38,458 nt of DNA from Microcaldota archaeon (GTDB lineage Archaea; Micrarchaeota; Micrarchaeia; Norongarragalinales; Norongarragalinaceae). This document shows, in pieces, positions 6,221 through 38,203 of the stretch (position 1 is its first letter; every line of letters starts with the position of its first letter). Under the pieces are notes generated by a model. The model had not been told where the DNA came from and did no database searches. It was given only the letters and a program-made list of their open reading frames with translations. The stretch lies in assembly GCA_016212375.1 (NCBI GenBank), contig JACRGH010000051.1, positions 1-38,458 of the forward strand, in the 5' to 3' direction. The position numbers and the translations under genes are program-made.

Positions 6221-6356
6221 AGATGAAGCGGCGGAGCCGTAACACCGCCGGGACCACAGGGGGAGAGCCCCCTATAGTCCGACGTTTCCCCGAACCCCCC
6301 AAGTCTAGACTAGCGAATCAAATAAAAAACCAAAAAGATGAAGCGGCGGAGCCGTA
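6221..6356. repeat. 21-bp direct repeat: duplicated 3' end of RNase P RNA
   Basis: The sequence agatgaagcggcggagccgt followed by a occurs at 6221-6241 and again at 6336-6356, preceded by an A-run in both copies. The second copy is the 3' strand of RNase P helix P1 plus its U-rich tail, on the minus strand. The first copy lies about 95 bp further along the RNase P transcript. There, on the minus strand, GGCGG and CCGCC can pair into a hairpin followed by TTCATC and seven Ts, which resembles a terminator. Between the copies is a perfect GGGGG/CCCCC hairpin (6260-6273). Confidence 0.75.
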
Positions 6357-6625
6357 GCCCGCTTTCTGTTGTCCACGGCATTCGACTAAGCGGCTCAAAG
6401 GCCTTGCATCCCCCAGCTTGGAGCGCGTTTCATCCGCCTGCGTCCAACGTCAGAGGACTTCATCCTACGGACGCGACGGTATCGTTTCTGTTCTCCAAGG
6501 CACGCCTTAAGCGTGGGACCTTGCAGTCCAAGGGTTCCGGTATTGCTACCGAAGATGAGCGGAGCTTCCTCAGCCACCCCGGTTTTGAATCGGGGCTACC
6601 GACAGCCATGCACTCCACCGCTTCA
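6339..6625 (-). ncRNA. rnpB: RNase P RNA (archaeal)
   Basis: About 287 nt on the minus strand. The 5' strand UGAAGCGGUGGAG (6625-6613) pairs over 13 bp with CUCCGCCGCUUCA at the 3' end (6351-6339), forming P1. Recognisable conserved blocks in order: GAGGAAGCUCC (CR-I type), GAACAGAAACGAUACCG (CR-II/III type), then AGUCGAAUGCCGUGG and ACAACAGAAAGCGGGCU (CR-IV/CR-V types). It is the catalytic RNA that trims tRNA 5' leaders. A TATA box lies 26 nt before the inferred 5' end. The terminal positions are inferred from P1 pairing and could be off by a few bases. Confidence 0.9.
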
Positions 6626-26767: not shown

Positions 26768-28420
26768 ATGTCGCAAGGAAATCTGAACGGACAACAAGTA
26801 CTCTACCTGCCGGAAGGCTCCAGCCGCGTCTTGGGACGGGACGCCCAACGCACCAACATCGCCGTCGGCTACGCCGTCGCATCCGCCGTCAAATCGACAT
26901 TGGGCCCGCGCGGCATGGACAAGATGATGGTCTCCGAAATGGGCGACATCGTCATCACCAACGACGGCGCCACCATTTTGAAGGAAATGAACGTCGAGCA
27001 CCCGGCCGCCAAAATGATGGTTGAAATCGCCAAGACCCAGGACGAAGAAGTCGGCGACGGCACCACCACCGCAGTCGTCATCGCAGGCGAACTGCTCAAA
27101 AAAGCCTTGGAATTGTTGGACCAGGACGTCCATGCGTCCACCATCATTTCGGGTTACAAATCCGCCTCGGCCCAGGCCATCCAGACGCTGTACGATGTCG
27201 CGGAAAACGTGACCATGGACGACAAAGCCATGTTGCAAAAAATCGCCGCCGTTTCCATGGGCTCCAAGACCGTCGCCTCGGGAACGGCCAAAGAGACCTT
27301 GGCCAAATTGGTCGTCGACGCCGTCACGCAAGTGGCAGAGAAAAAGGACGGCAAGTGGACGGTGGACAAGGAATTCATCAAGATTGAAAAGAAACAAGGC
27401 GGCGACATCCACATGACCACCTTGATTGGCGGCGTGCTCATTGACAAGGAAGTCGTGCACCCGGCCATGCCCAAGAAACTGGAAAAAGCCAAGATTGCGT
27501 TATTGGACGCCGCGTTGGAAATCGAAAAAACCGAAACGGACGCCCGCATCAGCATCACATCGCCGGACCAGATGACCGCCTTCTTGGAACAGGAAGAAAA
27601 AATGCTCAAGGACATGGTCGAAAAAGTCGCCGCGTCCGGCTGCAACGTGCTGTTCTGCCAAAAAGGCATCGACGACGTGGCGCAACACTATTTGGCCAAG
27701 AAAGGAATCCTGGCCGCCCGCCGCGTCAAGAAATCCGACATGGAAAAACTGGCCCGTGCCACGGGTGCCCGCGTCACCACGACGTTGGAAGACATGTCCG
27801 GTGCGGATTTGGGTTTCGCCGGATTGGTTGAAGAGCGCAAAGTCGCCGGCGAGCAGATGGTCTTCGTCGAAAAATGCAAAGAGCCCAAGAGCGTCACCTT
27901 GTTGGTCCGCGGTGGCACCGAACACGTCATTGACGAGGCCGACCGTGCCTTGGTTGACGCCATCGGCGCCGTTTCCTCGGCAATCCAGGAAGGCAAATAC
28001 GTGACCGGCGGCGGCTCCATTGATATGGAACTGGCCATGCGCCTGCGCAAGCACGCCACTCAAGTGGGCGGACGCGAACAATTGGCCATCACGGCATTTG
28101 CTGAAGCCCTGGAAGTTATACCCCGCACGTTGGCGGAATCCTGCGGTTTGGACTCCATCGACACCTTGGTCGACCTGCGTGCCAAGCACGAAAAAGGCCA
28201 GAAAACGCTGGGCATCGACGTGTTGAAAGGCAAAGTCGGCGACTTGAAAGCCGCGGGCGTCTTTGAGCCCCTGAAAGTCAAGAAGCAGGCCTTGCAATCG
28301 GCATCGGAAGTCACCGAGATGATTTTGCGCATCGACGACATCATCGCCTCCCGCGGCAAGCCCGGTGGCGCCGGAAAGGGCGGCATGGGCGGCGGCGAAG
28401 GCATGGACAGGGGCATGTAA
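26768..28420 (+). CDS. thsA: thermosome subunit (group II chaperonin)
   Basis: 550 residues. Group II chaperonin hallmarks are [24 protein letters not shown], the ATPase motif [33 protein letters not shown], and [19 protein letters not shown]. It ends in a Gly/Met-rich tail ([13 protein letters not shown]) typical of these subunits. It forms a two-ring ATP-driven folding chamber in the cytoplasm. A strong Shine-Dalgarno GAGGTG precedes the ATG by 8 nt. Its codon use is strongly biased, as expected for high expression. Confidence 0.97.
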
Positions 28421-28600: not shown

Positions 28601-29026
28601 ATGCACGAATTGCTCGTCCAATTGCGTAAACACTTGAATCGGAGTATGAGCGCAGCCGAGCTTCCAACGATTGGCACGGCATCCCTTGGAAGCATCGGAG
28701 AGGAAAGGTTCGAAGGCACACGATGGGGCTATCCTGGAACCATCAAGGCCAAAAGTCCGGCGGGCATAAGCCAGCGAATCAAATACATCAAGGCGGCACT
28801 CCGGAAACACCGCAATGCGCTGAAAAAAAACGAACTCCACGTCAACATCCTGCACAACGAACGAACCGGACACGTAAGCATCCGCATCCACGGCCCCTCC
28901 GAGTATTTCCGGGAAGAAGCCTCGAAGTTGGAAGTCACTTGGCATACCGGAAAGCACTTCAGTGAAGCGCCGGCTTGGAAAAACCACATCAACAAGACAC
29001 AACCGAAGTCGGGACAAAGCGGTTAA
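28601..29026 (+). CDS. small hypothetical protein, member A of a tandem family
   Basis: 141 residues, no known family. An N-terminal amphipathic helix (MHELLVQLRKHLNRSM), a GT-containing linker (GTASLGSIGEERFEGTRW), a second basic helix (QRIKYIKAALRKHRNAL), then two beta-strands around LHVNILHNERTGHVSIRIHG with following P, and a basic tail. The same order appears in the next two genes. Four bp separate its stop from the next ATG, so the two are probably co-transcribed. Confidence 0.65.
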   Translation: MHELLVQLRKHLNRSMSAAELPTIGTASLGSIGEERFEGTRWGYPGTIKAKSPAGISQRIKYIKAALRKHRNALKKNELHVNILHNERTGHVSIRIHGPSEYFREEASKLEVTWHTGKHFSEAPAWKNHINKTQPKSGQSG

Positions 29027-29030
29027 CGCA

Positions 29031-29588
29031 ATGGAAACGATGCTCAAAGCGATCATGACCGCCGCTCAGCCAATTCACATAAGCACGCAAGAATTCCTGG
29101 GCGGAACACACTCGATAGCCAAAGAATTCGCTAACCACACAAAAGAGCATGTGCGTTCCAGACTAATTGACCGAAGGGGAGAATTCTACGGCGAACTGTT
29201 GCCGGGCAGGAATATCCAGGAAATCATTAAAATAGTTGCCAAAGCATTCCAAAAAAGACTCCCAAAATACAAAGACAACGAAAGTCCGGTAATCCACATT
29301 GAAGTCCACCAAAAACCGGCGAATGGAAAAACCGTAGTTGGTATCCTCATCAAAACATTGAATTTTGAACCGTTTGACCCAAAAAAACTGGAAAGCATTT
29401 GGCATGGAACACCAATGGCCATCGCGGACAGGCAAAAACAACAGATGCCGCTTGAAACAACCAAAACCGATGCTCGAAAAGAAAATAGGCCGACCCCACC
29501 GATAATCCGACCGATTAGCCCGCCTCGAAAACCCAAATCACCCAGCTCAACGGACCGACGGGGCCATTTTTTCGACGGAAGTGCCTGA
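29031..29588 (+). CDS. small hypothetical protein, member B of a tandem family
   Basis: 185 residues from the ATG at 29031; the longer frame from 28962 overlaps member A and is less likely. The order is: N-terminal helix (METMLKAIMTAAQPIH), GTHSIAKEFANHTKEHV linker, helix NIQEIIKIVAKAFQKRLPKY, paired strands SPVIHIEVHQKPANGKTVVG with ILIKTLNFEP, then a Pro/Lys-rich, low-complexity tail of about 50 residues. No family recognised; similarity to members A and C is by eye. Confidence 0.65.
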   Translation: METMLKAIMTAAQPIHISTQEFLGGTHSIAKEFANHTKEHVRSRLIDRRGEFYGELLPGRNIQEIIKIVAKAFQKRLPKYKDNESPVIHIEVHQKPANGKTVVGILIKTLNFEPFDPKKLESIWHGTPMAIADRQKQQMPLETTKTDARKENRPTPPIIRPISPPRKPKSPSSTDRRGHFFDGSA

Positions 29589-29642
29589 ACAAAGAGTGAC
29601 TAAAAAGGAAAAAAAACAATACGCCAATAAAAATGTGACACC

Positions 29643-30038
29643 ATGTCCCACGACGTTATTCAAGTCATCCGCCGAATACGTAAATACGTCGAGCACCCGC
29701 TCGTGCCCAATTCCCGCGGCACATTAAACCCAACCAACCGTCTCTTTCACAATACCGTTGAATCACATGCCCATGGCGGAAACATGCCCATCATGCCCAA
29801 CACAACCCTTTCCGCTCGCGTCGATTCAAAAACAACGGCACTACTGATCGCGCGGTTGCTTCAGAAAATGCCAAAGAAGCTCATGGGATATTATTTCGAA
29901 GTCCATTTCATCCACACAAAAGGCGACATTCCGCAAATCCATCTGAACATCCAGGGGCCCAAAATTGCACAATTGCAAGCGCAAATACATGAAGAGTGGA
30001 ACCGAGAACTGCAAGCCAAAAGAGGGCCAAAAACGTAA
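29643..30038 (+). CDS. small hypothetical protein, member C of a tandem family
   Basis: 131 residues. N-terminal helix (VIQVIRRIRKYVEHPL), RGTLNPTNRLFHNTVESHAH linker, helix KTTALLIARLLQKMPKKLM, then strands YYFEVHFIHTKGDIPQIHLN with IQGP and a final charged helix. The strand pair with a central H and the I-x-GP ending closely parallel member A. It is spaced 54 bp from member B and lies just before the convergent tRNA-Arg gene. Confidence 0.65.
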   Translation: MSHDVIQVIRRIRKYVEHPLVPNSRGTLNPTNRLFHNTVESHAHGGNMPIMPNTTLSARVDSKTTALLIARLLQKMPKKLMGYYFEVHFIHTKGDIPQIHLNIQGPKIAQLQAQIHEEWNRELQAKRGPKT

Positions 30039-30084: not shown

Positions 30085-30195
30085 CGGGCCCGGCGAGATT
30101 CGAACTCGCGACTTCCTGCTCACTTCAAACCGATTGAAACTCATCAAAGCGGTCTTTAGAAGGCAGGCACTCTATCCAGGCTGAGTCACGGGCCC
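30085..30195 (-). tRNA. tRNA-Arg (UCU) with 36-nt intron
   Basis: 111 nt with acceptor GGGCCCG/CGGGCCC, D arm, and T arm GCGAG-TTCGAAT-CTCGC. Anticodon stem CCTGC/GCAGG and loop C-T-TCT-A-A give anticodon UCU. An intron at 30121-30156 lies between positions 37 and 38, the standard archaeal site, leaving a 75-nt mature tRNA without encoded CCA. Confidence 0.93.
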
Positions 30196-30295: not shown

Positions 30296-31195
30296 ATGGC
30301 CAAACTACCCAAAATCGCAGCCGCAGTCCTAATCCTCCACGGATTGGCGCAGGCGCCTGCAGGCACGCAGGAACACTGGGAAACACCGAGCGGACCGATC
30401 GACCCAGCCGCCCATACCACCCTGATGAAAACGGGGAATGTAAATTTCGTGAAAAGACACGGGCAGGAATACCGCATCGTACACTCAAAAGGACAAACCC
30501 CGTCCTTGATCGTCATGCAGTGCGCCGATTCGCGCGACGACTTGGTAACCCAGGCGGAACTTCCACCCGGGTATGTATTTGCCATGGGAACCAACGCCGG
30601 CAACATCATCAATCCAAAAGAGACCTCGCTTTTAGCCAACGTCGCGTACCACTTGAAACACCTCAAGGGCAAAAACCGCGCGTATGTGGTCATGGGCCAC
30701 TATGGCTGCGGCGGCATCAAAGGATTGGACGAATTGGAGCACTTGGAACCGGAAATCGCGGACCACCTCCGACTCGCACTTCCGGCCAAAGAATTCGTAG
30801 AAGGGCAATTACGCAATCGCAAGCTTAACGTCAGCGTGGAAACGCGCCATCGGATGATCGTCGAGGCGAACGTCCTGGCCCAAATCAAGAACCTGATGAG
30901 CATCAAACAAGTCCGCAGCGCGGTCGAATCGAAACAATTGGCCGTGATGCCCGTCATCTCGGACATCAACACCGGAGAGCTGCATTTCGGGCTCCCAACG
31001 CTGCAACAACACGGCATGTTGGAAACGGCCAAAGTGCAATTCGGCATCCAGAAATGGCTTTTGAACCAACACCGGTTGCAGGATCAACAACAAGCCCGTA
31101 TTCAGCAGCAGCCCAAACGGACACAACGAGAACGTCTTGCTCAAGTATTGCCAAAAGAGAGCCGACGAACCAATGGATTCAGGCGCAACCGCTAA
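30296..31195 (+). CDS. beta-class carbonic anhydrase, probably exported
   Basis: 299 residues from the ATG at 30296, chosen because AAGGTG precedes it by 9 nt and it yields a signal-peptide-like start (MAKLPKIAAAVLILHGLAQA). The frame opens 27 codons earlier. Beta-CA ligands are CADSR (zinc Cys with the Asp-Arg dyad) and GHYGCGG (zinc His and Cys). It interconverts CO2 and bicarbonate. The C-terminal 45 residues are Gln/Arg-rich and beyond the usual domain. An external enzyme could supply bicarbonate, the substrate of the PEP carboxylase encoded in this window; that link is inference. Confidence 0.88.
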   Translation: MAKLPKIAAAVLILHGLAQAPAGTQEHWETPSGPIDPAAHTTLMKTGNVNFVKRHGQEYRIVHSKGQTPSLIVMQCADSRDDLVTQAELPPGYVFAMGTNAGNIINPKETSLLANVAYHLKHLKGKNRAYVVMGHYGCGGIKGLDELEHLEPEIADHLRLALPAKEFVEGQLRNRKLNVSVETRHRMIVEANVLAQIKNLMSIKQVRSAVESKQLAVMPVISDINTGELHFGLPTLQQHGMLETAKVQFGIQKWLLNQHRLQDQQQARIQQQPKRTQRERLAQVLPKESRRTNGFRRNR

Positions 31196-31534: not shown

Positions 31535-31759
31535 AGTACGCCTCAGTAAGTTCCGGGCGAATAAAAGCGTATTTGGGGAAGGGAGGTCCGGAAATGAACA
31601 ACCTAAAAAAAACGAGGCGAAAGTGACTACGACGAATTGATTCAGACAAAAGACGAGTCCTTCGGCGTTTTCGCTTTCAAGAAACCCTAAAAAAGCCATC
31701 CGGCCACTAATTTCTTCCGTCTTTTCATTACCTCGGCACTGAAAGTCAAAACGCAAATT

Positions 31760-31832
31760 GGGGGATTGGGGTAGCCTGGCATCCTTCGTCCTTGGGGTGG
31801 ACGTGACCTGAGTTCGAATCTCAGATCCCCCA
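31760..31832 (+). tRNA. tRNA-Pro (GGG)
   Basis: 73 nt, without an intron. Acceptor GGGGGAT/ATCCCCC and discriminator A; anticodon stem CGTCC/GGACG with loop TT-GGG-GT; T arm around GAGTTCGAATCTC. A run of six Ts follows the 3' end immediately, likely a terminator. Confidence 0.93.
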
Positions 31833-31839
31833 TTTTTTC
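31833..31839 (+). terminator. T-tract after tRNA-Pro
   Basis: TTTTTTC directly follows the discriminator base. It resembles the oligo-T terminators of archaeal RNA genes and lies in the 11 bp between tRNA-Pro and the convergent ogt stop. Confidence 0.4.
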
Positions 31840-32192: not shown

Positions 32193-32627
32193 ATGGAAGA
32201 TATTTTCGGTACGGGTAAAGCGCTGAAACGCCAACAACGCGCAATAAAGAACCAATTAGCATTCAAACCAATAAAAATCGATACTAGTGCGGCGCTAAAT
32301 CCATGGGGACAAAAACCGGGCCCTGAAAGGGACAGTAGAAGAGCATTTACAAAAACACAGAGGAACGAAATCCTATACCAACAAGACAGCAAATGCGCGG
32401 TTTGCGGAGATAAACTAGATCCGCGCGATATTGAATTAGACCATAAAAAACCATGGGCCGCAAAGGGAAGAACAATTACTGAAAACGGCCGCGCCTTATG
32501 CGGATTTTGTCACAACAAAGTCACGCATAAACAAACACTAAAAAAAATAGACAAAAAACCGAAAAACAAACCATCAGCCAATTTAGGATTTGGCCAATCC
32601 GCCTTTAAGCTCGATAATTCTTGGTAA
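32193..32627 (+). CDS. HNH endonuclease
   Basis: 144 residues. An HNH zinc-finger nuclease core runs from about 60 to 110: CAVC (68-71), IELDHKKPWAAKGR with D83-H84, TENGRALC with N98, and CGFCHNK. The two Cys pairs bind the structural zinc and the metal-dependent site cuts DNA. The first 50 residues are basic and the C-terminus is Lys-rich. The sequence is AT-richer than its neighbours. It ends about 70 bp from the 23S processing stem; a link with the rRNA inserts is possible but unproved. Confidence 0.88.
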   Translation: MEDIFGTGKALKRQQRAIKNQLAFKPIKIDTSAALNPWGQKPGPERDSRRAFTKTQRNEILYQQDSKCAVCGDKLDPRDIELDHKKPWAAKGRTITENGRALCGFCHNKVTHKQTLKKIDKKPKNKPSANLGFGQSAFKLDNSW

Positions 32628-32717: not shown

Positions 32718-32966
32718 GATCCATACCGGCGTTAGTCACCGAGGAATCAAAAGTTGGCCTTTAGTAACGGTTCGCTGAAACCATCGCCGAAGCTTTGGCC
32801 TTACACGTCCGTCCTATCAAACCCGTCTGCTACGGGCGACCTAAGCAGTCTCGTTTTGGGAATGGCTTCGCCCTTAGATGCTTTCAGGACTTATCCAAAA
32901 GAGCGTGGCTACCCGGCGTCCTTGTAAAGAACCGGTAAACTAGAGGCTCCGATTCCCCGTTCTTCG

Positions 32967-33142
32967 AGTAGACTTTCCATCTCGAAAAAACGGAGCGTAA
33001 AGTTCCATCTCTCTTAAGCCGTTTCCTCCAGGCTGAACTCCGCACAACTGTTGACATTCTTTCATCCGATAAAGTCGGAATGCCATCCGTTGGCGTATCA
33101 AAACAACGCGTTAGGATAACGCGCGTCGCCTGTAGAAAACGT
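32967..33142 (-). other. insertion in the 23S sarcin-ricin loop, possible intron
   Basis: In RNA sense, the 5' flank GGUUCCCUAAGUAC stops matching at 33143 and matching resumes with AACGGGGAAUC at about 32960. The flanks still form helix 95 (GGUUCCCU with GGGGAAUC). A 4-bp AGUA/UACU helix and an inner UUUUC/GGAAA helix look like a bulge-helix-bulge, but the standard cuts do not regenerate the GAGA loop. Boundaries are approximate; no reading frame of note lies inside. Confidence 0.55.
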
Positions 33143-33324
33143 GTACTTAGGGAACCTTACCCTCAGACTGCAATGCACTCCTAGGAGATGCCACCGAACT
33201 GTCTCGCAACGTTCTGAACCCAACTAACGTGGGTCTTTAATGGATGAACAACCCAACCCTTGGCGGCTCCTGCACCGCCAGGATGACCCGAGCCGATAGC
33301 GATGTACCAAACCGCGTGGTCGAT

Positions 33325-33483
33325 ATGTACGGACTTTTTCTTTCCCGTTGGAAAGAAAACCTCCACTAAAAGAAAGAACGGATTGGTACCAAGTTTGGCT
33401 TTCCTTTCTTTCCCTAGCTTGAACTCAAAAGAATCTTTTCTTTCGGTTTGAGGCTCTTCTTCATATGACTGAAGAAAAGGTCA
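33325..33483 (-). other. 23S rRNA intron in helix 89 (159 nt, bulge-helix-bulge)
   Basis: It splits GAGAGUUCAU from AUCGACC, near E. coli 2477/2478. Intron ends pair as GACCUUUUCUU with AAGAAAAAGUC (one mismatch). Next to this are GUUC/GUAC and 3-nt bulges AUU and AUA; cutting each after its second base restores GAGUUCAUAUCGACC exactly. No endonuclease ORF is present. Confidence 0.85.
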
Positions 33484-36010
33484 ATGAACTCTCGCACGCG
33501 ACAAGCCTGTTACCCCCGGGGTAGCTTGTCTGTCAGAACAGGGTCCCATAAACGGACACACTGTTGTTCGTTAAGCCCCACTTTCGTGCCGGCGGCCCAT
33601 TTTGTTAGGACCACCATCAGTCCGACGTTTGTCTTTAACCCTCTACATCCGATTTCTGACCGGATTGAGTCGAACTTTGGGCGCCTTTGTTATTTTATCG
33701 AAGGCGTACCGCCCCAGTCAAACCGCCCACCTGCCGCTGTCCTCCCCCGAAAGAGAGTAAGCAACGCAGTCAAAAAGTAGCAGTGTCACACTTTCGCCTA
33801 TCCGGCCCCCGGAAGGACCGGCCTAACGGCTACTGCTTACGCTTTGACCTTCCAACCGTGTCGCAACAACAGGCTGCGGTTAAGCTCCACGGGGTCTTCG
33901 TTTCCCCCTAGGAATCCCCGGCATGTTCACCGAGTAGTAGGTTCACCAGGTTCAAGACAGGGACAGTGGGACGCGCGTTACGCCATTCATGCAAGCCGCC
34001 AATTAAGCGGCGAGGTATTACGCTACCTTAAGAGAGTCAGAGTTACTCCCGCTCTTTACCAGTCCTTTGCTCCCTTGAAAAGGAGTTTGAGATACTAGCA
34101 GTGAGCAGGCGTCGGCCTCTGTACACAGCGTTTCCACGTCGCAGAGACCTATGTTTTTGGTAAACAGTCGACGTCCCCTTGTTACTGAGACCTACGAATC
34201 CTCCGCAGATAAATCTCCGGAAAAAATGTAGGCACCCCTTCTACCGAAGGCACGGGGCTAACTTGCCGATTTCCCTTGTCTTGATTCTCCTGACACGCCT
34301 GAGCTTTTTCTGCTAGGGGCACCTGTACTGGTTCTTGGTACGGTCAAATCTGATCGAACATATACCCTTTTCATGGACTTTGGGATTCAAACCAACCTTG
34401 CGGCCATTCGCCATTTGCGCCAATGCTCCTCGCAACGAGACTTCTTGGCGGTATTTGGCTTGGACAGAATACATCTGCTGGATTTATCCCCAAGTGTGGG
34501 ATGTATGCCTTGCGTTGCCGCGTCTACAGAAATGGTAGGCGAATGTTAACGCCTTTCCCTTTCCCCTACACGGTTACGTTACGGGTTAGGACCGACTAAC
34601 TCTGGGCCGACAAACGTTGCCCAGAAACCCTTGCCCTTCCGGCGTCCAGGATTCTCACCTGGAATAGCTGCTACTAGCACCAAGATCTTCATTACAACCC
34701 GGTCCCCAGGAATTTACACCCCTGGTTCTACCCCGGCCGTACGCCCATCTACTCAATTCGTACCTTTCAGGTACAATGCCCACGTATCGGTGACTGGCTT
34801 GAGTCCCGACAGTTTACGATGCTCTGAATCTCAATGGATCCGCTGTTACGCGTTGTTTAAAGGATGGCAGCTTCTGTTCCTACCTCTCCACTGTCTACGA
34901 TTCGAAACATCTTGAGTTTACACTTAGCCAGTACTTTGGGACCTTAACGTGAGTACGGGTCGTTCCCCCCTCGTGACGCGCGCTTAACTCGCGCCACCAA
35001 CTCCCACCGTCTACGGCAGCATGCTCTTCGGAGTTTGACAAGGTGGTGAGGCCTTTCGGCCCCGCTCCACCAAATCGGTGGCTCTACAACATGCTAGCCT
35101 CGGGTGAGGCTGAACTGCGGTTCACTTCGATGGGAACCCGCTATCGCCAAGCTCGAATGACCTATCATCCCTAAGCGCAAGTCACCCCAATGGTTAGACC
35201 AATACGGGTGTCGGGCCTTCACCGTCCGGATGGACGGCTGCACCCTGCTCGCGTTTAAATCGCTTTGGCTTCGGGTCTTAAGACAGTGACTGACCGCCCA
35301 TGAAGACGGCTCCCCTGGACCCTTGCGGATTTGCGGGATATTTGCTTTCGCTGTGCGCAATGCTTGCCACGGCCTTAAACTCCTTGGCTCTTGCTTCAAG
35401 AAGGATGACACAACACTGATTGTCCTTGCGGACCCTTTGGTGCCGTGTCTTCGCTGTCACTATCCAATTTCAGGCACTTTGAACTGCGCTTTCGCGCTGC
35501 TTTTCAGTTTTCCCTCGCGGTACTCTGTTCGCTATCGGTCTTGGGGTATATTTAGCGTTGGAAGTTTATACTCCCGCCTTTATGCGCCCAAACAAGGACA
35601 CATTACTCTGGAACGTTCTCCACGCCTGCACGACTTCGCCTACCGGGCTATCACCGTCTATGACGGAGTTTTCCAACTCACTTCGGCTCGTCGACTTGCG
35701 TTAAAAAAAACGCCCAAACACCACATCTCTACTTGCCTTGCGGCAAGGATTCGGTTTGCGCTATTGCGCGTTCGGTCGCCCTACTGACGCAATCTCTATT
35801 GATTTCTTTTCCTCTTCCTACTAAGATATTTCAATTCAGAAGGTTTCCGCCTCTCTCGAGGCCATTCGGGGATCCCCGGTTCGCCGGATGCATGCTCCTC
35901 GCCGGGGCTTATCGCAGCTTGCCACGCCCTTCTTCGGTACCCAAGCCCAACCATCCACTGGATAGTGTGTAGCTTTACTACTCCTCGTGAACTAATGCCA
36001 ATTATGCATT

Positions 36011-36309: not shown

Positions 36310-36405
36310 TGGACTCGGCGGGATTCGAACCCGCGGCCTCGTGATATTTTGGAACGCGCATCGCGTTCTTGCAAATCACGCGCGCTACCACTGCGCCACG
36401 AGCCC
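36310..36405 (-). tRNA. tRNA-Ala (UGC) with 24-nt intron, in the rRNA operon
   Basis: 96 nt with acceptor GGGCTCG/CGAGTCC, discriminator A, anticodon stem CGTGA/TCACG and anticodon TGC. An intron at 36346-36369 lies between positions 37 and 38 and folds as a GAACGC/GCGTTC hairpin. Mature length is 72 nt. A tRNA-Ala in the 16S-23S spacer is common in euryarchaea. Confidence 0.93.

Positions 36406-36587: not shown

Positions 36588-38203
<1,616 letters not shown>

Follow-up and report, generated by a model that had tools for sequence, protein, structure and literature searches.

Small genes after a thermosome gene in a Micrarchaeota genome appear to belong to an apparently undescribed, fast-diverging protein family

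Three small genes with hardly any mutual similarity lie side by side after a thermosome gene in an archaeal genome, and the locus raises the question of whether they form one protein family, how they came to their place, and what their products may do. The window, that is, the whole 38,458-nucleotide stretch analysed here, is contig C38 of the draft genome G000 (1.34 Mb in 75 contigs, 82% complete). Genes A (28601..29026, +; 141 aa, pI 10.2), B (29031..29588, +; 185 aa, pI 10.0) and C (29643..30038, +; 131 aa, pI 10.3) are consecutive on the + strand, as the first-pass annotation had described them. B begins 4 nt past the stop of A, and its start is most likely the inner ATG at 29031 and not the start of the open reading frame (ORF) at 28962, as this ATG fits the gene layout. 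Codon bias was positive in the claimed frame only (0.158, 0.096 and 0.094 per codon for A, B and C, respectively) and negative in the other five. A, B and C are real genes. By eye, none of the three proteins shows a secretion signal.

The locus is anchored upstream by the thermosome (archaeal chaperonin) gene (26768..28420, +), which has orthologues in two sister species. The name thermosome was assigned from the sequence and is presumed. Among the best 80 of 545 confirmed stretches, its three nearest named records were Candidatus Micrarchaeota genomes labelled as groundwater isolates. The downstream anchor is an intron-containing tRNA gene (30085..30195, −), missed by ARAGORN and detected by Rfam (RF00005, 53.6 bits), which is apparently a tRNA-Arg(UCU) when the anticodon and the intron are read by eye. 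The next protein gene encodes carbonic anhydrase (30299..31195, +; PF00484, E=1.7e-24), and this gene is found downstream in the sister genome G002 as well. The gene names ATP-citrate lyase and isocitrate dehydrogenase are likewise presumed. The window also carries an archaeal RNase P RNA gene detected by Rfam (6343-6621, −), 23S and 16S rRNA genes (32742-35982 and 36590-38201, both −) with a tRNA between them (36310-36405, −), and a gene for a small HNH protein near the rRNA genes (32193-32627, +; PF01844, E=5.6e-9). ARAGORN reported a tRNA-Pro at 31759-31833 (+), which was absent from the Rfam list at the gathering score; this stretch is 99% identical in G002 and 95% identical in G001.

The proposal that the three proteins are diverged paralogues of one small-protein family was examined with members collected from relatives. 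With A as the only query, a paralogue was detected in the same genome, D on contig C64 (E=5.7e-4), an alignment equalled by none of 2000 shuffles. Genes E (G002) and F (G001) were picked by their position after the thermosome gene, and H by its position beside the aconitase gene. A profile of six cores (A, B, C, D, E and F) then led to genes in G001 and G008, a second profile led to another gene in G008, and gene I (contig C41, G000) was added by a class-wide search (E 0.0015). When a profile of seven members from outside the window was used to score A, B and C against 2674 six-frame ORFs, A was recovered with E=2.3e-6, C with E=1.3e-3 and B with E=3, the best non-member standing at 3.9. The addition of E to this profile gave 2.4e-7 for A, only 0.18 for C and 3.7 for B. 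Against the 2674 ORFs, a four-member profile built from other loci recovered F (5e-9), D (6e-8), H (3e-5), A (4e-5) and C (7e-4); the best non-member stood at 0.85, and B was absent from the list. As several members had been found with profiles holding A, B and C, these tests and the held-out tests below are not independent for A and C; the scores of F, E and H, found by position, are a cleaner test, which E fails by profile alone.

Held-out tests gave E values of 4.2e-8 and 5.9e-8 for A and 0.011 and 0.14 for C. The best non-member listed there (L007:4364-4648) is a truncated copy of C and was disregarded. With C held out of the full set, L020 of G008 (E 0.12) scored level with C (0.14). The test restricted to the cores was weaker, as C was third with E 0.79, B 18th and E 66th in ranks that count non-members, and neither B nor E was recovered by profile search alone. 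In profile-profile comparison, A and C were scored by profiles without them and 400 control ORFs by a ten-member profile; none of the controls reached A or C, one reached B, three reached E and 11 reached L020. The alignment of B in this comparison kept register over the whole span between the G-x-L strand and the Trp described below. Pairwise, the local alignment of A and B was reached by seven of 2000 shuffles and the global one by 94 of 2000, and no relation was detectable for A-C or B-C in the shuffle-tested alignments. C and L022 of G001 aligned over the full length (pairwise E 0.018).

Judged by these sequence profiles, A clearly belongs to the family and C fairly clearly so. B is only probably a member, as suggested by its local alignment with A, the in-register profile comparison and a low-confidence model, and the kinship proposed for the trio thus stands for A and C and is only probable for B. 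The supported genes number ten, namely A, C, D, H and I in G000, F, L019 and L022 in G001, and L015 and L035 in G008, with B (G000) and E (G002) as two probable ones. L020, alike by eye, was left out of the count because 11 of the 400 controls score as high.

In their shared layout, the members open with an N-terminal helix and a linker, which varies in length and carries a loose F patch; a strand, a helix, two strands and a helix ending in Trp follow. The helix, F-containing linker, helix and two strands had been noticed in the first reading of the trio, which missed the strand before the basic helix and the C-terminal Trp helix. The F-x-x-T patch given there as a motif is not a fixed one, as the F patch recurs loosely and at a varying distance from the core; the I-x-GP run is present in A and C and, among the three, absent from B; the Pro/Lys-rich tail of B is indeed there. 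The strand before the basic helix carries G-x-L/I/V in most members, with Gly in 10 of 12 rows and Ala in its place in C. The first of the two strands ends in His in nine of 13 rows, which is the best polar column. The Trp at the end of the C-terminal helix is found in all 11 rows with a residue there (L020 included) and forms the sole fully identical column, a count favoured by the cutting of the cores at the Trp by eye. H is without the Trp, and L035 is interrupted before its position. The core-ending Trp is W114 in A, W124 in B (core at about residues 51-127, the Pro/Lys-rich tail following it) and W119 in C (core from about residue 54).

Structure prediction was applied to A and B, and both models are of low confidence, with pLDDT below 50 over the Trp-bearing helix or part of it. 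The AlphaFold2 model of A, made with four rows, had a mean pLDDT of 54.8 (67-75 over residues 51-100 and lower outside them, with 42 in the block 111-120) and placed a helix at 2-15, a strand at 43-49, helices at 53-69 and 71-76, strands at 80-86 and 91-97, and a helix at 101-115 holding W114. The model of B, predicted from its sequence alone with no alignment, had a mean pLDDT of 51.9, below 40 in the last helix, with a strand at 14-16, a helix at 25-36, strands at 41-46 and 52-56, a helix at 62-76, strands at 87-97 and 100-110, and a helix at 117-124. The two predictions did not yield unrelated folds: starting at the strand that precedes the basic helix, they run through the same order of elements as far as the last helix, and B has one extra strand ahead of this part.

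The position of the genes was compared among related genomes. The place after the thermosome gene is occupied by A, B and C in G000, by one gene, E, in G002 and by one gene, F, in G001. The place before the aconitase gene is occupied by one gene each in G000 (H), G001 (L022) and G008 (L015) and by none in G002. There, an empty site of 152 nt (L054, G002:C1) separates the aconitase gene from that for geranylgeranyl reductase, compared with 634 nt with H in G000. At the thermosome locus, core identity was 11-21% for members of different species and 7-19% within the trio, while the thermosomes of G002 and G001 are 95% and 82% identical to that of G000. At the aconitase locus, core identity was 19% for H-L022, 21% for L022-L015 and 8% for H-L015, while the aconitases of G000, G002 and G008 are 78%, 79% and 68% identical to that of G001. 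The genes hold their places at two loci across species, and at one of them across genera, while their sequences diverge far beyond those of their neighbours.

An old local duplication had been suggested as the origin of the trio. Core identity within the trio is very low (A-B 19%, A-C 15%, B-C 7%), and A is nearest to D, on another contig, with 30% core identity over 69 columns. The tree resolved no branch and neither recovered nor rejected a clade of A, B and C (p-AU 0.314); its terminal branches have a median length of 1.28 changes per column. With A nearest to D and the tree in this state, a local duplication is at most a possible origin of the trio.

The genes stand singly or in a short run beside housekeeping genes, mostly in the same orientation. 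Where Pfam was run, the neighbours were geranylgeranyl reductase and aconitase at the locus of H, L022 and L015, transketolase with D about 84 nt downstream, GAPDH with L019 18 nt downstream, and triosephosphate isomerase with L035 about 355 nt downstream. H begins inside the stop codon of the gene before it (TGATG), and L022 starts 3 nt after the one before it. Genes for a PIN protein and an Rpb7-like subunit adjoin I in divergent orientation. A central-carbon enzyme adjoins four of six loci, which is given here purely as an observation. As read by eye, the member L035:1348-1785 (G008:C104) is broken close to its C-terminus by a short segment that has inverted ends and is apparently a small mobile element; a transposase-like ORF lies downstream of the interruption, and intact members are present elsewhere.

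Members were found in four Micrarchaeota genomes of two genera, clearly in G000, G001 and G008 and by position in G002. Among 60 relatives searched with A alone, only its own genome was matched, and A gave no match in viral contigs or in the first genome scan. The wider searches took in 29 genomes of the order, 295 of the class and 11 of the family. The search of the 295 class genomes gave no further clear member; besides G000, G001 and G008, weak matches occurred in 11 genomes (E from 1.5e-4 to 0.135), three of which were inspected, and the ORFs at L066 (the best of these matches), L067 and L069 were unlike members by eye. L017 was rejected as a repetitive stretch with stops and L030 as not member-like. 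After the thermosome gene, seven other genomes of the family had no recognisable member, and among the best 80 of 545 confirmed thermosome stretches in named genomes a member was present only in JACQQD010000008.1, which probably corresponds to G001. Two small orphan ORFs near housekeeping genes (L040:6603-6944 and L041:4244-4567) have a family-like layout by eye and were reported by no profile search run.

No credible match was obtained in Pfam, NCBIfam, PHROGs, PADLOC or the PDB sequences for the members scanned, not every member having been run in every library. The best E was 0.075 against the PDB sequences, PHROGs gave a single match (E 0.043) for one of nine members, and the PADLOC-DB defence models gave no family for any of nine members, a set that includes A and C but leaves out B. 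Foldseek with the model of A reached a best E of 0.13 against the PDB, and a second structural comparison reached a best Z of 6.0 for A and 5.9 for B, which is not credible for models this weak. In a viral structure library, the best row for A was an uncharacterised Bodo saltans virus protein (E 0.016, rmsd 7.3), not credible either. Absence from these structural match lists excludes no fold. No account of the family was found in the part of the literature that was searched. The family appears to be undescribed, although lineage-restricted, fast-evolving families are known as a kind.

Several known folds were compared with the models. The de novo protein Peak6 (6mrs), a ferredoxin-like alpha/beta plait, aligned with the model of A (Z 5.8, 2.9 Å over 72) and that of B (Z 5.3, 3.2 Å over 73); these Z values are at background level for models of mean pLDDT 52-55, and there is no sequence relation. 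Five of the six elements of the ferredoxin-like order beta-alpha-beta-beta-alpha-beta occur in sequence in the weak models of A and B, the final strand not being seen. The strand-helix-strand-strand-helix core of the A model aligned with the KEOPS subunit Pcc1 (Z 4.7, 2.5 Å over 59 of 75), yet this Z is within the range of unrelated rows, Pcc1 was not among the rows shown for B, and no PDB chain matched by sequence. The A model likewise has the strand-helix-helix-strand-strand-helix order of a type I KH domain, together with a superficial I-x-G-P-x-E run, but no GxxG was seen by eye between two helices in the core alignment. KH (PF00013) was tried on account of these two likenesses and was rejected, as both profile and profile-profile comparison stayed at noise. 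When 18 KH domains from relatives were made into a profile, the highest-placed of the 13 family sequences were L020 and L035, the 100th and 151st of 3037 reported rows; the core-KH score of 9.99 was exceeded by the reversed control (11.21) and by 8 or more of 60 column-shuffled ones; and Pfam scans of A, B, C, D, E, F, L015, L019 and L022 gave no KH_1 match up to E=1. The family profile also touched the helix and hairpin of the palm domain in a GGDEF protein (PF00990) of G008, but E=0.0285 is at chance level, and no GGDEF domain appeared in the scans of the nine members (E up to 1), so membership there was rejected.

What the proteins may do was considered from these features. Our preferred reading, held tentatively and at somewhat less than even confidence, is that the fast-diverging, lineage-restricted family represented by A, B and C consists of small proteins, soluble-looking and with a single domain, that serve as non-enzymatic binding or adaptor proteins, with a partner that changes or is specific to each paralogue. 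The fold and the Trp would be kept as a scaffold, and the surface would change because the bound partner changes or differs for each paralogue; this partner may be protein, RNA or DNA. The absence of an invariant polar residue, together with the kept hydrophobic frame and Trp, points to a role in binding and not in catalysis. A narrower possibility, raised in the first-pass annotation and which we consider unlikely, is a nucleic-acid-binding module that would hold on to RNA or DNA, perhaps the transcripts of the neighbours, through a basic helix and a hairpin. The pI is 9.2 or more in 10 of 13 sequences (L020 among them) and 10.0-10.3 in A, B and C, both B and L015 carry C-terminal Lys/Pro-rich tails, and small alpha/beta domains of such element order are common among RNA binders. 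The structural rows would also agree with it in kind, since they include tRNA-bound Pcc1 of KEOPS (Z 4.7) and KH domains (Foldseek E 0.19 and 0.84), but all are at background level. Moreover, I, H and E are not basic (pI 6.8, 8.0 and 8.1), the comparison with KH gave noise, and Pfam, NCBIfam and the PDB sequences offered no credible match.

Fast divergence can also mean weak constraint, and the genes might be loosely constrained small ORFs riding on the transcription of their neighbours and drifting with little or no fitness role. The long terminal branches (1.28 changes per column in the median), the lack of a gene at the aconitase locus of G002 and the disrupted copy in G008 are as such drift would leave them. 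We nevertheless regard it as rather improbable: the frames stay open over 120-185 codons, A, B and C have in-frame codon bias, the Trp and the element order are kept despite saturation, and the aconitase place is kept across two genera. A similarly low probability is given to genes of an arms race under positive selection, serving a small archaeon, perhaps a symbiont, in defence, counter-defence or the interaction with its host. Gene number does differ at fixed loci along with extreme divergence, and, as read by eye, a small mobile element appears to have interrupted one member; yet the genes adjoin housekeeping genes, PADLOC assigned none of nine members, PHROGs gave its one match at E 0.043 among nine, and the secretion signal looked for by eye in A, B and C was not seen. 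Most specific, and very improbable in our estimate, is a genus-level adaptor family whose paralogues would each be dedicated to the housekeeping enzyme or complex of the adjoining gene (thermosome, aconitase, transketolase, GAPDH or triosephosphate isomerase), with place and fold kept and the surface rewritten far faster than the enzyme.

If such a link to the neighbouring enzymes were functional, these proteins would be regulators dedicated to their own locus, an unusual kind, in a small-genome archaeon. Many archaeal genomes hold orphan genes without detectable relatives. Here, synteny and iterated profiles joined a set of such orphans into one family that is placed stably while its sequence saturates within one archaeal family, and the family may serve as a test bed for the way in which orphan genes come about by divergence and not out of non-coding DNA.
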